NCBI GenBank assembly: GCA_026005175.1
Contig: BPKO01000007.1
Location: 62,001 to 126,000, forward strand
From: Candidatus Tectimicrobiota bacterium
GTDB lineage: Bacteria > Tectomicrobia > Entotheonellia > Entotheonellales > Entotheonellaceae
Direction of reading: 5' to 3'
Length of the DNA stretch: 64,000 bases
This document shows positions 502 through 8,850 of the stretch, in pieces. A model generated the notes under the pieces. That model was given only the letters and a program-made list of their open reading frames with translations. It searched no databases and was not told the origin of the DNA. The translations under genes and the position numbers were made by a program. Position 1 is the stretch's first letter, and each line of letters begins with the position of its first letter.

Positions 502-1588
502 TCACCGCAGTTTTAACGTGCTCAGGCTCAGGAGCGCCAAAATAATGGCGATGATCCAGAAGCGAACAATCACCTTGGGCTCTTCCCACCCCTGTTCTTC
601 GAAATGGTGGTGGAGGGGTGCCATGCGAAAGACGCGTCTGCCGGTGAGCTTAAAGGAGACGACCTGCACGATGACCGACAGCGTCTCGATGACAAACAAG
701 CCCCCGATGAGGAGCAGCAACAGCTCATGCTTGACGAGGACGGCTACCGTACCCAGCGCACCGCCCAAGGCCAAGGCGCCCACATCGCCCATGAAAATCT
801 GCGCCGGATAGGCGTTGAACCAGAGGAACCCTAGGCTTGCCCCCACCAGGGGCCCCGCAGAAAACGGCGAGCTCTCCTGCCCCAGGCACATAGGGAATGT
901 TCAAGTAGGCGGCAAAGCGAGCATGGCCGGCCACGTAGGCAATGCCTGCATACGCAAAAGCCGCGACGCTAAGCGGTCCAGTGGCCAGCCCGTCTAGTCC
1001 GTCGGTCAGATTCACGGCGTTGCTGGTGCCTACAATCACACAGATACTGAAGGGGAAGTAAAACCATCCCAGGTCGGGCATGACCTCTTTGAAAAACGGC
1101 ACGGCCAGCCGCGTGACCTGCCAGCTCGGGTCGGCCAGGAGGTAGAGCAGCCCAGAGACCACAGCAGCAACGAGCACCTGGAGAGGAAACTTGTGCTTGG
1201 CGCGCAGCCCCGCCTCGCTACGCCGCGAAATCTTGCGGTAGTCGTCCCAGAAGCCAATGGCGCCAAAGGCCAGCGTGGCCCCCAGCGCGAGCCACACCTG
1301 AACCACCGTGAGGTCAACCCACAGCAGGGTCGACAAGCACAGGGCGCCCAGGATGAGCACCCCTCCCATGGTCGGGGTTCCTGCTTTGACGTAGTGCGAC
1401 TTGGGGCCATCGCGGCGAATGATCTGACCGATTTGCCACTTTTGCAGCCACCGGATCACGTAGGGCCCCAGGAGCAAGCTCACCAGCAAGGCGGTCAGCG
1501 CCGCGTAGGCGGTACGAAAGGTGATGTACCGAAAGACGTTGAACGCCGAAAAGGTTTGGTGGAGCGGGAAAAGAAGGTGATACAGCAT
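502..1588 (-). CDS. mraY: Phospho-N-acetylmuramoyl-pentapeptide-transferase MraY (one frameshift)
   Basis: Transfers phospho-MurNAc-pentapeptide from UDP to undecaprenyl phosphate, giving lipid I in the inner membrane. Visible motifs: [16 protein letters not shown] (61-76), catalytic aspartates in GFWDDYRK (DD at 115-116), [10 protein letters not shown] (193-202), then [17 protein letters not shown] and [13 protein letters not shown] in the C-terminal half. The C-terminal half is in another frame; the shift is an extra C in the five-C run at 840-844. Removing one base leaves 361 residues, the normal family length, so a sequencing insertion is likelier than real decay. ATG at 1588 shares one base with the murF stop (TGATG), suggesting translational coupling. 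Confidence 0.93.
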
Positions 1589-2985
1589 CAGTGCCCCTTT
1601 CCCTGGGCACCCAGCCCTTGCACCACGCGTTCCATGGCCATCCCCCGTGAGCCTTTGACCAAGACGACATCCCCCGCCTCGAGGAGCCGCCGCAGCACGG
1701 CCAGTGCCGCCTCGTGGTCCTCCACGCATACGATTCGGGGCCGCGGCATGCCGGCGGCTGCCGCCCCCTCGGCCATATGGCGCGCCAGCGGCCCGACCGT
1801 AATCAAGTAGGCCAGTCCGCTGCGGGCGGCCACCGCGCCAATTTCCGCGTGCAGGGCCGGTGCCGCTTCCCCCAGCTCGAGCATATCCCCCAGCACCGCC
1901 AGGCGCCGGCCTGCGCCTTCTAGCCGTTGCACGAAGGCCAACGCCGCCTGCATCGACTGCGGATTGGCGTTGTAGGTGTCATCCACCACCACCACCTCGC
2001 CCAGCCGGTGCACCGTCAGCCGCCCCGGGACGCCGCGGTAGGCCTCTAGTCCGGCGACGATGCGCGCTGGCGGCACGGCCAAAGCCAACCCTACGGCGGC
2101 CGCAGCAAGCGCATTGCTGAGGTTGTGCCTCCCCGGGAGCGGCACGTGCACCTCCCAAGCGGTTCCTTGCAGCTCGAGAAGGCACCGAAACCCATCCAGG
2201 CCCGCGTCGTGCAGCAGGCGTCCCCGCACCTCGGCCGTCACCGCCTGGCCAAAAGTGACCAGCCGCCCGCGCGCCCGGCGGCCTAGCGCCAAGGTCCGTG
2301 GATCATCGGCATTGACCACGGCCACGGAAGAGGCATCGAGCGCCTCGATCAGCTCCCCTTTGGCTTCCTGAATGCGCTCGATGGAGCCCAGGTACCCCAC
2401 ATGGGCCAGCCCGATGTTGGTCAGCACCCCCACGTGGGGCTGCACGAGCTCGCACAGACGCCGGATCTCGCCCAGATGGTTCATGCCGAGCTCAAAAACC
2501 GCCATTTGCGCCGTCGACGGCAGCTGCAGCAGGGCCAGCGGCACGCCAATATGGTTGTTGTAGCTCGCCGGGGCTTTAAAGGTGGGGTAATGGGTTTGCA
2601 GCACGGCGGCCGTCATTTCCTTCACCGTGGTCTTGCCGTTGCTGCCGGTGACGGCAATCACCGTACCGCCATAAGTCCCTCGCCGCGCCTGGGCCAGCGC
2701 CTGCAAGGCCGCCAGCGGATCGGCAACGACGACGACGGCCACCTCTGCCGGCACCGGGGGAAGGGCAGCGGCCCGCGCTGCCGCGACGATCACGGCACGG
2801 GCCCCGCGGCGCACCGCCTCGGCGATGAATTGGTGACCGTCAAAGCGCGCGCCTGGCAGGGCCACAAAGAGCTCACCGGCGCGCAGGGTGCGCGAATCCG
2901 TGCTCACCCCGCGGACTTCTTGCTGCGGGTGCCCCTGGCGCAAGCAGCCTCGGGTATGGGAAACGATGTCGGCCACCTTCCACAC
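1588..2985 (-). CDS. murF: UDP-MurNAc-tripeptide--D-alanyl-D-alanine ligase MurF
   Basis: Cytoplasmic ATP-dependent ligase that adds D-Ala-D-Ala to the UDP-MurNAc-tripeptide, completing the pentapeptide used by MraY. The 465-residue protein has the Mur-ligase ATP loop TGSNGKTT at 113-120, the FELGMNHLGEI segment that follows it in MurF, the ligand-binding stretch DTYNANPQSMQAAL, and the C-terminal Rossmann domain with VLGDMLELG. Length is normal. The start is GTG at 2985, 11 bp after the murE stop; the stop overlaps mraY by one base. No frame problems are seen. Confidence 0.95.
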   Translation of the reverse strand: MWKVADIVSHTRGCLRQGHPQQEVRGVSTDSRTLRAGELFVALPGARFDGHQFIAEAVRRGARAVIVAAARAAALPPVPAEVAVVVVADPLAALQALAQARRGTYGGTVIAVTGSNGKTTVKEMTAAVLQTHYPTFKAPASYNNHIGVPLALLQLPSTAQMAVFELGMNHLGEIRRLCELVQPHVGVLTNIGLAHVGYLGSIERIQEAKGELIEALDASSVAVVNADDPRTLALGRRARGRLVTFGQAVTAEVRGRLLHDAGLDGFRCLLELQGTAWEVHVPLPGRHNLSNALAAAAVGLALAVPPARIVAGLEAYRGVPGRLTVHRLGEVVVVDDTYNANPQSMQAALAFVQRLEGAGRRLAVLGDMLELGEAAPALHAEIGAVAARSGLAYLITVGPLARHMAEGAAAAGMPRPRIVCVEDHEAALAVLRRLLEAGDVVLVKGSRGMAMERVVQGLGAQGKGH

Positions 2986-2996
2986 CGGTTGGGGTC

Positions 2997-4478
2997 CTAG
3001 CCGCCACGGGCGGTCAAGAGGGAGCGCACGACCTCGCGGTCGTCAAACGGCAGGCGCTGCTGACCGACGATTTGATAATCCTCGTGCCCTTTGCCGGCAA
3101 TAAGCACCGCGTCGCCCGGGCGGGCCACCGCCAGGGCATGGGCAATGGCCTCCCGCCGATCGGGAATGGTGACGTAGGCACGGTCTTTGGCAATCCCCGC
3201 CACGATGGCCGCGATGATCTGCAACGGGTCCTCACTCCGCGGATTGTCCGAGGTAACGATGGTGTAGTCACTGAGCTGGGTAGCGACCCGGCCCATCAGT
3301 GGACGCTTGCCCGGGTCGCGGTCGCCACCGCACCCAAAGACCGTAATCAGCCGACCGGCGGTGTCGGCGCGCAGCGAGCGGAGGACCTGCTCAAGTGCCG
3401 CCGGGGTATGGGCGTAGTCGACGAAGACGGCGAACGGTTGCCCCGCCTCAACCCGCTCAAGGCGCCCGGGAACCTGCCGCAACTGGGCAATGCCTTCGAC
3501 AATCGCCGCCGCCTCCACTTCCAGGGCCACGGCCACCGCAATGCCGGCAAGAAGATTATAAACGTTGTGACGGCCAACGAGGGAGGAGCGAATGGCAAGA
3601 CGCCCGATGGGGGTGGGCACCACACCGCGAATGCCGTGGAGGTCGTGGTGCAGCGTTTCTGGGGTGAGCGTGGCGGCGTGATGCAACCCGTACGTGAGCA
3701 GCCGGGTAGAGGTCGCCTGTGCGAGCTGCCGGCCACGAGGATCGTCCAGGTTGAGGATGTGCCAGCACGCGGGGTACTCGCGGAACAGGCGGGCCTTGGC
3801 CTCAAAATAGGCCGCTTCGCTGCCGTGGTAGTCGTAGTGATCGCGGCTCAGGTTGGTAAAAACACAGGCAGCAAAGTGGCAGCCGCGGACGCGTTCCTGC
3901 ACCAACGCATGGCTTGAAACCTCCATCGCCGCGTAGCGGACGCCTGCGGCCACCATCTGCGCCAGCAGGTGCTGCAAAGTTGGCGCCTCGGGGGTGGTGT
4001 GCGGCGCGGCCATACAGTGAGAACCAAAGCGGTAGTTAATCGTCCCCAGAACCCCCACGGAACGCCCGGCAGCCCGCAGAATGGCTTCGATGACGTAGCA
4101 AGTGGTGGTCTTGCCGTTGGTGCCGGTTACCCCGACGAGCGCAAGCTGGCGCGAGGGATGGCGGTAGAAGGCACTGGCGAGGAGGCCAAGGGCCTGCCGG
4201 CTATTGGGTACCTCGATCACCGCCACATCGCGCGCCTGGGCCTGTTGCAGCAGGGCCGCTGTGGTCTGCTCGACCACCACCGCGGCGGCCCCTTTGGCCA
4301 GGGCCTCCTCGACAAAGCGATGGCCGTCGGTGGTGTCGCCCCGCACGGCAACAAAGAGCATTCCGGGAGCCAGCTGGCGCGAATCGGCAGTGATGCCCCA
4401 CACCTGGCGTTGCAGCGAGCCGCTGCGCACCCGTCCGGACACTTCGGCCAGCAGGTCGTGAAGCCACCGAAATAGCAT
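2997..4478 (-). CDS. murE: UDP-MurNAc-L-alanyl-D-glutamate--2,6-diaminopimelate ligase MurE
   Basis: Cytoplasmic ligase adding the third stem-peptide residue. The 493-residue protein has the ATP loop TGTNGKTT at 118-125, the SHALVQERV segment, and the C-terminal DNPRSEDP motif at 411-418. DNPR is the signature of enzymes that select meso-diaminopimelate rather than lysine, so the organism most likely has mDAP peptidoglycan. ATG at 4478 lies 5 bp downstream of the ftsI stop. The gene is intact. Confidence 0.95.
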   Translation of the reverse strand: MLFRWLHDLLAEVSGRVRSGSLQRQVWGITADSRQLAPGMLFVAVRGDTTDGHRFVEEALAKGAAAVVVEQTTAALLQQAQARDVAVIEVPNSRQALGLLASAFYRHPSRQLALVGVTGTNGKTTTCYVIEAILRAAGRSVGVLGTINYRFGSHCMAAPHTTPEAPTLQHLLAQMVAAGVRYAAMEVSSHALVQERVRGCHFAACVFTNLSRDHYDYHGSEAAYFEAKARLFREYPACWHILNLDDPRGRQLAQATSTRLLTYGLHHAATLTPETLHHDLHGIRGVVPTPIGRLAIRSSLVGRHNVYNLLAGIAVAVALEVEAAAIVEGIAQLRQVPGRLERVEAGQPFAVFVDYAHTPAALEQVLRSLRADTAGRLITVFGCGGDRDPGKRPLMGRVATQLSDYTIVTSDNPRSEDPLQIIAAIVAGIAKDRAYVTIPDRREAIAHALAVARPGDAVLIAGKGHEDYQIVGQQRLPFDDREVVRSLLTARGG

Positions 4479-4483
4479 GGTGT

Positions 4484-6256
4484 TTACTCCGCTCTTGGCG
4501 CAGCCCTGGCCACCCCTCTGTCTGCTACCGTCATGTAGGGGACATCAGGCTGCGGCGCGCGTACGGTCAGCGCCTTTCCCTGAGGTGGGGGGACGCGTAG
4601 GTAGTGTAAGGCTTGCTGCGCGATGCGGCGAAAGAGGGGGGCTGCGGCCTGTCCTCCCCAGCGATGCCGCTGCGGTTCGTCGAGCATTACCAAGAGGACC
4701 AGTTCTGGCGCCTCGGCAGGCAGATAGCCCACAAATGAGGCGAGCACCCGCTGCTGGCTGTAGCCACCCGTTTCGGCATCGACTTTCTGCGCCGTTCCCG
4801 TTTTACCCGCCACCGCATAGCCGGGAACGGCCGCCAGTCGTCCGGTCCCGCGCACAGTCACGCCGGTGAGGATGGCAGTGAGCTGCTCGGCCGTGCGACG
4901 CGACAGAACTTGTCGCCGCAGCCGTGGCGGCAGTGTCTGCCGCGTGTCGCCGCGGACAAGCGACCGCACCAGCCGCGGCTGGACGAGCCAGCCGCCGTTG
5001 GCTATGGCGGCATAGGCGGTGATGAGTTGCAGGGGCGTTACCGCAATTTCCTGCCCCAAGGCCAAAGAGGCCTGGGAAAACCCCGACCACGCTTTTGGCG
5101 GCCGCACCTCACCCGGGGATTCCCCCGGCAAGCCCACGCCGGTGCTTTCGCCAAAGCCAAAGCGCCGGATGTAGCGGTAGAGCTGTTCGGGAGTGAGCCG
5201 CTCGGCGATTTTTACCGCCCCGATGTTGCTCGAAAACTGCAGCACTTCGGCAAAACTGAGGAAGCCAAACGGCTCGTGGTCGCGGATGCGCCGCGGCCCT
5301 CGCTGCAGCAGGCCCTCTTCGCAGAAAAACGGCTCTTCGGGGCGGGCCACCTCCGCCTCGAGGGCTGCGGCGGCCACTATGACCTTGAAGGTGGAGCCAG
5401 GTTCCACGGGATCGGTGACGGCCCAGTTGCGCTGCCACTGCTGCTGCGCAGGGTCGCGAAAATCGTTGGGGTTAAAAAAGGGGTAGAGGGCCAAAGCCAA
5501 GATATCCCCAGTGTAAGGCTGCATGAGCAAGGCAAGACCCCGGGTGGCTCCTGTCTCTTCTACCCGCGTGGCAAGTTCTTTTTCGGCAAGATACTGGAGC
5601 TGGGCGTCGAGGGTGAGGTGCACGTCGGCGCCACGCGGAGGGTCAGCGGCAAGAAGGCGGCGCCGCAGGGCATCGCGCGGCACGGTGACCTGCCGTACCT
5701 GCCCGGAGAGGTGGCGATCGAAGGCGTACTCCACCCCGCCCAATCCCTGGCCGTCAACACCGACAAACCCCAGGACCTGGCCGGCCAAGTGCCGGTAAGG
5801 GTAGTAGCGCCGCCGCTCCGAAAGGACGTGGATCCCCGGCAAGGCCAAGGCCCGCAGGCGCTGTTCGACCTCGGGGGTGACTTGGCGCGCCAGCCAAACA
5901 AAGGGGCCCTGCGCTTGGAGCTGCTGATGCAGGCGGGCACGCGGGGACTGGAGCACCTCGGCAAGCTGGGAAGCGACTCGGTCGGGATTGGCCACTTCGT
6001 GCGGCACGGCATAGACCGAAGGCACGGGCAGGCTGGTGGCCAGCACTCTTCCCTGGCGATCCACGATTTGCCCCCGCTCGGGGTGTAGCGTCAGCTGCTG
6101 TTGGTACTGGCGAGCCGCCAGGCGGCGCAGCGACTCGTGCTGCACGATCTGCGTTAGGTAGAGCCGCCCCGCGATGGCCATAAAGCCAAGGGCAAAGCAG
6201 CCAAGCACCAGGCCCAAACGCGCCTTTCGATAGGGCCGGCGCTGCCAGGGGTTCAT
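4484..6256 (-). CDS. ftsI: Division-specific penicillin-binding protein FtsI (PBP3-like transpeptidase)
   Basis: Class B PBP that cross-links septal peptidoglycan; 590 residues. A short basic N-terminus (RRPYRKAR) precedes one membrane anchor at about 12-30. Then come the dimerisation domain starting near RGQIVDRQGR (61-70) and the transpeptidase domain with its three active-site motifs: STFK (Ser288), SSN (342-344) and KTGT (485-488). No PASTA domain follows. I start at ATG 6256, which overlaps the ftsL stop as ATGA; a longer reading frame upstream overlaps ftsL and has no N-terminal homology. Confidence 0.94.
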   Translation of the reverse strand: MNPWQRRPYRKARLGLVLGCFALGFMAIAGRLYLTQIVQHESLRRLAARQYQQQLTLHPERGQIVDRQGRVLATSLPVPSVYAVPHEVANPDRVASQLAEVLQSPRARLHQQLQAQGPFVWLARQVTPEVEQRLRALALPGIHVLSERRRYYPYRHLAGQVLGFVGVDGQGLGGVEYAFDRHLSGQVRQVTVPRDALRRRLLAADPPRGADVHLTLDAQLQYLAEKELATRVEETGATRGLALLMQPYTGDILALALYPFFNPNDFRDPAQQQWQRNWAVTDPVEPGSTFKVIVAAAALEAEVARPEEPFFCEEGLLQRGPRRIRDHEPFGFLSFAEVLQFSSNIGAVKIAERLTPEQLYRYIRRFGFGESTGVGLPGESPGEVRPPKAWSGFSQASLALGQEIAVTPLQLITAYAAIANGGWLVQPRLVRSLVRGDTRQTLPPRLRRQVLSRRTAEQLTAILTGVTVRGTGRLAAVPGYAVAGKTGTAQKVDAETGGYSQQRVLASFVGYLPAEAPELVLLVMLDEPQRHRWGGQAAAPLFRRIAQQALHYLRVPPPQGKALTVRAPQPDVPYMTVADRGVARAAPRAE

Positions 6257-6558
6257 GGGGCCTCCCTCTCCTGGGGCAGGCGGGGTTCGGCCCGCACGTA
6301 AATCACTTGCGAGGCTTCGGGCTGCCGCAACCCAAGGCGCTCTTTGGCGAGGGCTTCGATGCGGGACCACTGGCGCAGGGTTGCCCGCTCAACCCGCAGC
6401 TCCTCACGACGACGCAGCACCGCTTCCCGCTCGGCTTGCAGCTGGCTGCGGCGGTAGTTCAGCGCAACGAGCTGCATTTGCGGCCAGAGGTAAAGCAAGG
6501 CGCCACCCAGGAGCATGGCGGCACAGAGCACGAGCACCACGTAGAGCCGCGCTTGCAC
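6253..6558 (-). CDS. ftsL: Cell division protein FtsL (small bitopic protein)
   Basis: A 101-residue protein with one membrane segment right at the N-terminus (about residues 4-24, rich in V, L, A), followed by a charged predicted coiled coil with many Arg, Glu and Gln and then the segment ALAKERLGLRQP. This is the usual FtsL architecture, and the gene sits where ftsL normally is, directly before ftsI. FtsL is a divisome scaffold with FtsB/DivIC and FtsQ and activates FtsW-FtsI. The GTG start at 6558 is chosen because a GGAGAGG ribosome site precedes it. The name rests on topology and position more than sequence. Confidence 0.8.
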   Translation of the reverse strand: MQARLYVVLVLCAAMLLGGALLYLWPQMQLVALNYRRSQLQAEREAVLRRREELRVERATLRQWSRIEALAKERLGLRQPEASQVIYVRAEPRLPQEREAP

Positions 6559-6607
6559 GGAACCTCTCCACGACCCAGGCAGGCTGTCGCGGCGGATGAG
6601 GCAGGTC

Positions 6608-6838
6608 TTACGCCTCTCGGTGGCAGCCCAGCGCCGCACACGCCGCTTGGTAAAGCCGCAAGGCAATCTCCAACGCCTGTGCCGGGTCTTCGTGCCAGAC
6701 TTTCACCGTCGGTTTGGGGATCCCCTGGGCGTCCGTGGTGATTTCCACGGAAGAGGCCGGCGCAGGAGCGACCGCCACGGTACGCTCACAGACCGAGCCG
6801 TCTCCGGCATAGACGATCGTCTCAGTGACGTGCGGCAT
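6608..6838 (-). CDS. 76-aa protein of unknown function between mraZ and ftsL
   Basis: Not recognised. ATG at 6838 follows a good GGGAGG ribosome site 6-7 bp upstream, and the frame is open to 6608, 49 bp before ftsL, in the same strand and operon. The protein is soluble, with no membrane segment. A beta-rich N-terminal half (TETIVYAGDGSV, TVAVAP, SVEITTD) leads to a C-terminal amphipathic helix with the pattern HEDPAQALEIALRLYQAA. It lies where rsmH (mraW) is found in most dcw clusters. At this size it cannot be RsmH. The gene is probably real because of its spacing and ribosome site; the function is open. Confidence 0.65.
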   Translation of the reverse strand: MPHVTETIVYAGDGSVCERTVAVAPAPASSVEITTDAQGIPKPTVKVWHEDPAQALEIALRLYQAACAALGCHREA

Positions 6839-6976
6839 AGCTGACCTCCCTTGACCCAGCACTTCTCAACCTCTCCGCGACCACCCGGGCGCGGGCGCCC
6901 CGGCCACGACGCCGTGGCGGGACAAGACGAGCTCCCTTTTCTTCCCCTGGACATGGCCAAGGGGGGAGCAGCGGCT

Positions 6977-7423
6977 TTAGAGTTGCAGCTCCATGAGCCG
7001 CGCATGCGAGTCAAAGCGGGCACTTTCGCTGGCATCGTAGGCTTCCCATCGCGCCGGCGACCACAGCTCGAGTTTCTTTAGGACACCAATAAGCAACGCT
7101 TCCGTTTCGATGCCCGCGTACTGCCGGAGCTTCAGGGGGATGAGCAGGCGGCCCTGGCGATCCAAGTGACAGACGCTGGCGCTGGCACAGAACTGGCGCA
7201 AAAACGCCCGCGTGCTGGCGTCATTGCGCAGGCCGAGCAGCTGCGCCTGAATATCGAGCCACACCGCTTTCGGATACAGCACCAGGCACTGCTCAAAGTA
7301 CTTCGTCACCACAAACGTCGTGTCGTGCGGGGCATAGAGCTCGTGCAGCGTCTGCCGCACCGCCGCGGGAACGCTCAGCCGCCCTTTCTCGTCGAGACTG
7401 AGGCGATATTCCCCGAGAAGCAA
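6977..7423 (-). CDS. mraZ: Transcriptional regulator MraZ
   Basis: First gene of the dcw operon and its autoregulator. The 148-residue protein has two SpoVT/AbrB-like half-domains, each with the DxxGR motif: DEKGR at 11-15 and DRQGR at 87-91. MraZ forms ring-shaped oligomers that bind tandem TGGGA-type boxes in its own promoter; three such boxes lie at 7438-7462. The start is TTG at 7423 with AGGTGAGG about 5 bp upstream; the N-terminus MLLGEYRLSLDEKGRL matches the family start. A gap of about 140 bp separates it from the 76-aa ORF. Confidence 0.94.
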   Translation of the reverse strand: MLLGEYRLSLDEKGRLSVPAAVRQTLHELYAPHDTTFVVTKYFEQCLVLYPKAVWLDIQAQLLGLRNDASTRAFLRQFCASASVCHLDRQGRLLIPLKLRQYAGIETEALLIGVLKKLELWSPARWEAYDASESARFDSHARLMELQL

Positions 7424-7437
7424 GCGCCCTCACCTTT

Positions 7438-7462
7438 TCCCACTTTCTCCCACTTTCTCCCA
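7438..7462 (-). promoter_or_regulatory. MraZ operator: three TGGGA boxes at 10-bp spacing
   Basis: On the minus strand TGGGA occurs at 7462-7458, 7452-7448 and 7442-7438, with identical GAAAG-type spacers, exactly one helical turn apart. This is the known MraZ binding layout, directly upstream of the mraZ start and just downstream of the promoter -10 box, so bound MraZ would block initiation or clearance. Confidence 0.88.
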
Positions 7463-7469
7463 CGCGACA

Positions 7470-7499
7470 ACTATACCCCTCCCCCTGCAGCCCTGTCAA
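7470..7499 (-). promoter_or_regulatory. Sigma-70-type promoter of the mra/dcw operon
   Basis: Minus strand: -35 TTGACA (7499-7494), 18-bp spacer, -10 TATAGT (7475-7470). Transcription would start around 7463, at the edge of the MraZ boxes, and run through mraZ to ftsW. Confidence 0.8.
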
Positions 7500-7580
7500 G
7501 GGAATTCTCAGCCGGCAAGGGGGCAAGGCAACAGCGGAGACGGTGTGAGGGGATAAGGAAGAAGAGACGGAAAGGGGACA

Positions 7581-8004
<424 letters not shown>

Positions 8005-8777
8005 TGCCCGCTCCACGACACAGGCTTCGTCCGCAGACGGCGCGGGCTCTTGCACGGGCCATAGCAGCATGCGGCGGCAGTGCGGGCAGGTAAAGAGCTT
8101 TTCCTGGCGGCGAATCTCGGCAACGAGCTGCGGCTGGACTTTGAGGTGACATCCCCCACACGTGCCGTCTTGCACTTCCACCACCGCCAGGCCACCGCGC
8201 GCTGCCACGAGCTGTTCGTACTGCGCATAGAGCCCCGCCTCGAGGCGCTCCACGAGTCGCTGGCGCGCTTCCTGTTCTTCCCGCAAGCGCTGCGCCAGCT
8301 CGGCCTGTCGCACCTGCAGCAGCTGCTGCTGGCGGGCCAGTTCCTGCTGGGCCGCCTCCACGCGTTGCTGCTGCGCCTCGCAGGCCAGGCGCTGCTGCTC
8401 GGCCTGTTCCATCAGCTGCAGGATCTGCTCTTCTAAAGCCTCGATGCGTTCTTTACCCGCGGCAATCTCGGCCAAGACGGCACTGTACTCGCGGTTCGTC
8501 TTCACCTCGCGCAGCTTGCGCTGGGTCTTGGCCAGCGCCGCCTGGCACTCATCGAGCTCGCGCTCACGTGCCCGCCGCTCGCGCTCACTCGCTGCGAGCT
8601 CCGCACGCAACTGGTCCAGAGCCTGACGCGCTTCTCTACACGCCTGCTCGTAGGGATGGAGCTGCTGGGGGAGCTGCCGGTGTTCGTCTTCCAGACGGCG
8701 CAGCCGCTCGTCGAGGCGCTGCAACGCCGCCAACAGCACCAACTGGCTGCGCACGCTCACGCTCCCTTTCCTCTCAG

Positions 8778-8850
8778 TGGGCCCACCTGGCTTCGAACCA
8801 GGGACCAACCGGTTATGAGCCGGTAGCTCTACCCGCTGAGCTATGGGCCC
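8778..8850 (-). tRNA. tRNA with CAT anticodon (elongator Met or Ile2)
   Basis: A 73-nt cloverleaf: acceptor GGGCCCA pairs with TGGGCCC, D arm GCTC/GAGC, anticodon arm ACCGG-CTCATAA-CCGGT, T arm CCTGG-TTCGAAG-CCAGG; no encoded CCA. It is not an initiator, since position 1 pairs with 72 and there is no run of three G-C pairs in the anticodon stem. The short D loop and TTGGTC next to the anticodon stem resemble lysidine-modified tRNA-Ile2, so identity between Met and Ile(CAU) is open. Confidence 0.92.

Follow-up and report, generated by a model that had tools for sequence, protein, structure and literature searches.

A virus-type gene in the rsmH position of the dcw operon of a Candidatus Tectimicrobiota genome

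The window, the whole stretch of 64,000 nucleotides of Candidatus Tectimicrobiota contig BPKO01000007.1 that was analyzed, carries the head of a dcw operon on its minus strand. Its own genome is designated G000 and its four nearest genomes G001 to G004. The operon contains the following features, given in the direction of reading:

7470-7499, minus strand: sigma-70-type promoter match (TTGACA-18-TATAGT, 11/12 bases)
7438-7462, minus strand: three TGGGA repeats with a spacing of 5 nt, MraZ-box-like by sequence match
6977-7423, minus strand: mraZ (PF02381, Pfam 8.8e-31)
6839-6976, minus strand: spacer of 138 nt separating mraZ from ORF76; the ORF76 ribosome site lies at its end
6608-6838, minus strand: ORF76, 76 aa, ATG at 6838 and stop at 6608-6610, member of a virus-type family
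6253-6558, minus strand: ftsL (Pfam 2.2e-05), start at GTG 6558 inferred by alignment with relatives
4484-6256, minus strand: ftsI, 54.6% identical to G003
2997-4478, minus strand: murE, 61.5% identical to G003
1588-2985, minus strand: murF, 54.5% identical to G003

The usual dcw head reads mraZ-rsmH (mraW)-ftsL-ftsI. Like it, the operon in the window has mraZ first, behind a promoter and MraZ-box-like repeats, and keeps ftsL, ftsI, murE and murF in the usual order; it differs in that the slot between mraZ and ftsL lacks rsmH and holds a virus-type 76-aa gene instead, while rsmH is located on another contig. One promoter match was found before mraZ, compared to 0.1 expected from shuffles, and the repeats are called MraZ-box-like on the basis of what we take to be the box consensus. 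A promoter and such repeats ahead of mraZ are typical of dcw operons under MraZ control, which would make ORF76 the second gene here, probably transcribed together with mraZ from the mraZ promoter. RNA folding of the spacer between mraZ and ORF76 revealed nothing unusual (z 0.01). Further upstream, an RNase P RNA (class A, 324 bits) is encoded at 7581-8000 (minus strand) between a zinc-ribbon gene and mraZ, and a tRNA at 8778-8850 (minus strand) is located upstream of the zinc-ribbon gene.

A previous sequence-only reading of the locus had described a 76-aa ORF with a good ribosome site as the sole gene between mraZ and ftsL, which was confirmed: the sequence GGGAGGT is located 5 nt before the ATG. 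An alternative start at GTG 6862 would yield a protein of 84 aa. Other frames overlap ORF76 mechanically, for instance one of 110 aa (6703-7035, minus strand) and one of 82 aa (6596-6844, plus strand); sequence relatives were found for the ORF76 frame, unlike for the overlapping ones. The length of ORF76 alone could be due to chance, since 259 shuffles contained an ORF of that length when the 418-nt gap was shuffled 1000 times with dinucleotides preserved. It is the relatives, not the length, that rule out a chance frame: ORF76 aligns to four virus-type proteins (see below) with scores of 102-161, whereas the maxima from 500 shuffles each were 39-45. Because its relatives score above all shuffles, ORF76 is more than a chance frame and, judged by sequence comparison, is a real gene. 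Comparison with the relative L042 showed 14, 16 and 30 differences at codon positions 1, 2 and 3 over 50 codons, and comparison with L153 showed 23, 19 and 44 over 58 codons, a pattern as for a constrained protein. ORF76 as a remnant of rsmH was rejected: a tblastn search of 30 RsmH proteins against 5501-8200 gave no similarity below E 0.12 (22 residues) in the slot, and the best match outside the slot had E 0.032.

Among the nearest genomes, the order mraZ-rsmH-ftsL is adjacent in G002, G003 and G004, the three of the four in which both flanks were found; G001 has rsmH-ftsL and gave no mraZ match at E 0.001. In G001 a triple TGGG repeat, MraZ-box-like, is located directly before rsmH and near the contig end (L037:14308-14332). 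No profile match for ORF76 was obtained in G001-G004 at E 0.01, and the core motif of the family is missing from the single-sequence matches in G001 (E 0.58) and G003 (E 0.067). The proposal that ORF76 is a conserved gene of the lineage at this locus was thus contradicted, the ORF being absent from all four genomes. The proposed replacement of rsmH holds for the genome of the window, where the slot is free of rsmH, and fails for the relatives, where rsmH stands between mraZ and ftsL in three of four. Both findings go against a lineage-wide replacement and leave the ORF as real and the description of its slot as correct. Because the relatives lack the ORF and have rsmH in its place, ORF76 does not qualify as a division gene conserved across the lineage; it may have a role in division or regulation. 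Among 59 best-scoring rsmH loci (two of them repeat fetches of the same genes), MraZ was encoded within 1.5 kb in 47, and mraZ-rsmH-ftsL is a very stable gene order.

A second MraZ-family protein is encoded in a DNA-repair operon (L040:7357-7863 in G003, L041:6015-6521 in G002 and G000:C1:49079-49492). The order in G003 is recA, the mraZ paralogue, nurA, an unnamed gene, a herA-type helicase gene and a gene for a calcineurin-like phosphoesterase, which we presume to be Mre11-like; in G000 herA and the phosphoesterase gene are likewise near the mraZ paralogue.

The suggestion that rsmH might be found elsewhere in the genome proved right. A single match is present, on contig C11 (G000:C11:137122-138006; PF01795, 319 bits), and it encodes a full-length Methyltransf_5 domain (profile positions 2-307 of 309), identifying the protein as RsmH. 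In this region (L038:8120-10038) the gene is flanked by an ATPase_gene1 (AtpZ/AtpI-like) gene on one side and by a toxin-antitoxin-type pair of HEPN and nucleotidyltransferase genes (HEPN-MNT) on the other. While the C11 protein shares the full domain with RsmH (MraW), it is divergent, being 42-44% identical to RsmH of G001-G003; mraZ, ftsL, ftsI, murE and murF of the window are 51-63% identical to the copies of the relatives, and the RsmH proteins of G001 and G003 share 63% identity. RsmH proteins 51-56% identical to the C11 copy were found in several genomes of other phyla. In a tree of 56 rows, from which L077 (partial) and the duplicates L115 and L117 were left out, the C11 protein pairs with the RsmH of a genome of 0.6 Mb (L118; SH-aLRT 89). 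A motif search matched 42 of the 56 rows, the C11 copy with PLLMT and the other 41 with PLDMR; L118 was among the 14 unmatched rows, and the alignment shows PLLMT there too. Such a motif may point to donors from candidate phyla. In a smaller RsmH tree the C11 copy was unplaced. Approximately unbiased (AU) tests did not reject a clade of the C11 copy with the family (p 0.289; p 0.384 with G004; p 0.404), so that the C11 copy may instead be the native gene, relocated and then changed fast. Overall the comparisons suggest displacement of rsmH by a foreign copy, which is favoured over common descent, with the AU tests not being decisive.

Contig C11 also encodes a PolX-type polymerase that is 38-43% identical to those of three relatives; G001 lacks PolX. 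The genome has two such polymerases (G000:C11:135059-136807 and G000:C1:34529-36208), which are 42% identical to each other. The C11 protein is more similar to the PolX of G004 (43%) than to the G002 (39%) and G003 (38%) proteins, so C11 may carry an acquired stretch close to rsmH.

A profile search of the 76-aa protein had been proposed as a way to place it. No Pfam family was found at E up to 1, and hence no Methyltransf_5 domain (PF01795); ORF76 shares no similarity with RsmH. Its relatives were found instead in virus-type contigs. Four distinct relatives were detected, three in viral contigs of IMG/VR and one in a contig filed as a Pacearchaeota MAG, so that the family comprises five members with ORF76 included. 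The contigs are 3300005340_000038, 3300028802_000012 and 3300037808_001962 (IMG/VR) and NZDU01000008.1. The closest relative, L042 (62 aa), was found in a scan of IMG/VR and is 62% identical to ORF76 over 50 residues. The remaining three, L045 (62 aa), L048 (97 aa) and L153 (96 aa), came from a scan with L042 as query, a scan of GTDB contigs by alignment and a search for the DNA pattern. L153, encoded at L153:6267-6557, is 43% identical to ORF76 over 58 residues. A further IMG/VR contig, L046, contains a cut-off piece identical to L042 over 22 residues and was not counted. The Pacearchaeota contig (L048) is read as a virus contig because its gene order, judged by eye, parallels that of the viral contig L153. 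The family core is SSVE...G...(V/I)KV(Y/W)H(E/A)DP..A, with 13 columns invariant in all five members, ORF76 among them. L048 and L153 have an extra N-terminal helix (predicted for L153), and the first pair of strands is missing in L042 and L045. ORF76 thus shares with these unnamed small viral proteins the core motif and a hairpin followed by a helix. It differs in its setting: theirs are virus-type contigs, whereas ORF76 belongs to a bacterial division operon, with mraZ and ftsL as its neighbours, and is not encoded in a virus or provirus.

A set of 19 proteins encoded near the relatives was compared with PHROGs. Those named are, around L153, a DnaB-like helicase, a Holliday junction resolvase, a polymerase exonuclease subunit and a thymidylate synthase, and around L045 a DNA helicase, a primase/helicase and an ATPase. 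Of the four virus-type contigs, two or three have replication genes within a few kb of the family gene. This setting is not common to each member: on the L042 contig (L044) a single neighbour was named, an HNH endonuclease at a distance of about 3 kb.

The family is rare in cellular genomes. A profile of four rows matched two of 386 genomes at E 0.01, the window's own and G112; the G112 match (E 0.005) was unrelated on inspection, leaving no credible match in the 385 other genomes. Two scans of 84,980 species genomes, which require conserved peptide patterns and can let distant members escape, returned L048 alone. Single-sequence searches gave 24 weak matches in 16 other genomes; 19 of these 24 loci were scanned in six frames, and the core motif was present in none. 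The DNA pattern scan yielded six loci: two known contigs, the new relative L153, and L149, L150 and L154, which were rejected as relatives since the pattern falls inside another protein, presumably a capsid-like one. Phage records gave no match with two queries, plasmids gave none with ORF76 and one unrelated match (E 0.2) with L042, and further viral scans added no relative of ORF76.

No NCBIfam match was obtained for ORF76, the PADLOC defence models gave no family for any of the five members at E up to 1, and the PHROGs match of ORF76 was no better than 0.24. An AlphaFold2 model of ORF76 (four sequences; mean pLDDT 85.6, pTM 0.54) predicts two hairpins and a helix, with strands at residues 3-10, 16-24, 30-35 and 41-46 and the helix at 52-74; the model of L153 (mean pLDDT 79.7, pTM 0.47) has the added N-terminal helix. 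The predicted ORF76 fold had no convincing match: at E 0.001 Foldseek returned nothing in PDB or BFVD for the ORF76 model and nothing in PDB for the L153 model, and the best VIA Z values were 3.6 and 3.9, respectively. The best PDB match of ORF76 by sequence was 0.13; a profile of five rows matched titin at 0.0045 over 25 positions, with nothing else under 0.2, which was taken as chance. Among the chains in structural comparison with the L153 model was T7 gp1.2, the phage inhibitor of the E. coli dGTPase (7u65_G Z 3.0, 2mdp Z 2.5). It is also a small phage protein, but these Z values are too low for a claim of kinship, and the PDB sequence searches gave no match to it.

Another reading takes ORF76 for a ribosome-binding protein whose C-terminal half would be a reduced version of the HPF/YfiA (S30AE) hibernation domain, with the gene replacing rsmH near the same ribosomal site. 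L153 aligns to the Pfam family S30AE (PF02482) with residues 8-92, nearly its whole length (E 0.0084), but scores below the curated cut-off (17.3 vs 23.7 bits), and it is the one member of five with such a match at E up to 1, ORF76 itself having none. In structural comparison the L153 model aligns with YfiA 4v8i_AY (Z 3.2, rmsd 3.1, 45 aligned residues) and the YfiA/plastid HPF chains 6eri_AG (Z 2.4) and 4v61_BI (Z 2.5), and the ORF76 model with 4v61_BI (Z 2.2, rmsd 2.0, 41 aligned); overall these chains reach Z 2.2-3.2 over 39-45 residues, which is within the chance range. The profile-profile score is 13.37, higher than in any of 60 column shuffles (top 12.91), yet it corresponds to a probability of 0.77%, and MraZ, used as an unrelated control, reaches 13.33. 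With a sub-threshold Pfam score and a control scoring as high, the HPF/S30AE identity was not supported after follow-up, and we regard this reading as very improbable.

Better placed, though still unlikely in our estimate, is a neutral capture, in which a viral gene landed in the rsmH gap and has been carried along without a function tied to division or to MraZ. No relative keeps the ORF in its dcw operon, and the family is otherwise found in virus-type contigs alone, which speaks for it. Against it stand the intact frame and strong ribosome site of ORF76 within a compact essential operon, as well as the codon-position pattern, although the constraint seen there may date from viral life. The locus might also be an artefact of assembly or binning, either through a chimeric dcw junction or through C11 coming from another organism while the genome's own rsmH is missing. 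The MAG is 77.49% complete with 3.55% contamination, and PolX and RsmH of C11 are not family-like. A chimera, however, would need two joins within about 400 bp, and both flanks match the dcw genes of the relatives. C11 in turn carries the genome's sole PGK match, which shares 72% identity with the G001 protein, along with an AAA protease that shares 67% identity with one encoded in G001. Its composition correlates with that of the window at 0.90-0.93, compared to 0.88-0.96 for other stretches of the genome (C2 omitted, masked bases) and 0.77-0.81 for the relatives. Because of these two proteins and its composition, C11 probably belongs to the window's genome, and we consider an artefact improbable.

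The explanation we prefer, and hold to have about an even chance of being right, is that the dcw operon lost rsmH, that a divergent rsmH on C11 acts in trans and that a viral 76-aa gene was captured in the slot and is transcribed with the operon. In this view, rsmH would have been lost from its ancestral place, and the 16S rRNA methyltransferase would be supplied in trans by the single divergent C11 copy, which was probably acquired. The gene of putative viral origin would have entered the position left free, second in the operon. Its transcription would probably start at the mraZ promoter, which has the MraZ boxes, and its translation at the ribosome site of its own. Its product would most likely be a small adaptor, folded as two hairpins plus a helix, that attaches to a partner molecule and would be dosed with the division operon in this genome; it would be no catalytic replacement for RsmH. 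Likely partners are nucleic acids, replication proteins or proteins of the host, because replication genes are located near the family gene in two or three of the four virus contigs. As sequence, the swap in the slot is solid; the direction of transfer from virus to host, the acquisition of the C11 copy and co-transcription are what we infer from it. The case is that of one MAG, the single genome of its genus.

In the literature, E. coli is described as able to do without mraZ and rsmH, with transcription from there into the operon being what matters (PMC11731830), RsmH is listed among the factors conserved in reduced candidate phyla (PMC12641178), and the dcw cluster is presented as broadly conserved apart from losses specific to some groups (PMC8871954). 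Together these statements fit an operon that can spare the rsmH position in a cell that keeps the enzyme. A search of titles and abstracts found no report of rsmH being replaced by such a gene. A bolder version, which we offer as a long shot, is that a viral host-takeover protein was domesticated as a lasting, MraZ-dosed member of the division operon after a foreign rsmH at another site had displaced the operon's own. It would then tune division-gene expression, MraZ activity or the state of the ribosome, in place of a non-catalytic role of the mraZ-rsmH pairing. The ORF76 locus exposes a family of small viral proteins that is unnamed in the libraries searched. With the operon kept, rsmH moved and a virus-type gene in its place, it would provide a natural test of whether the pairing of mraZ and rsmH matters.
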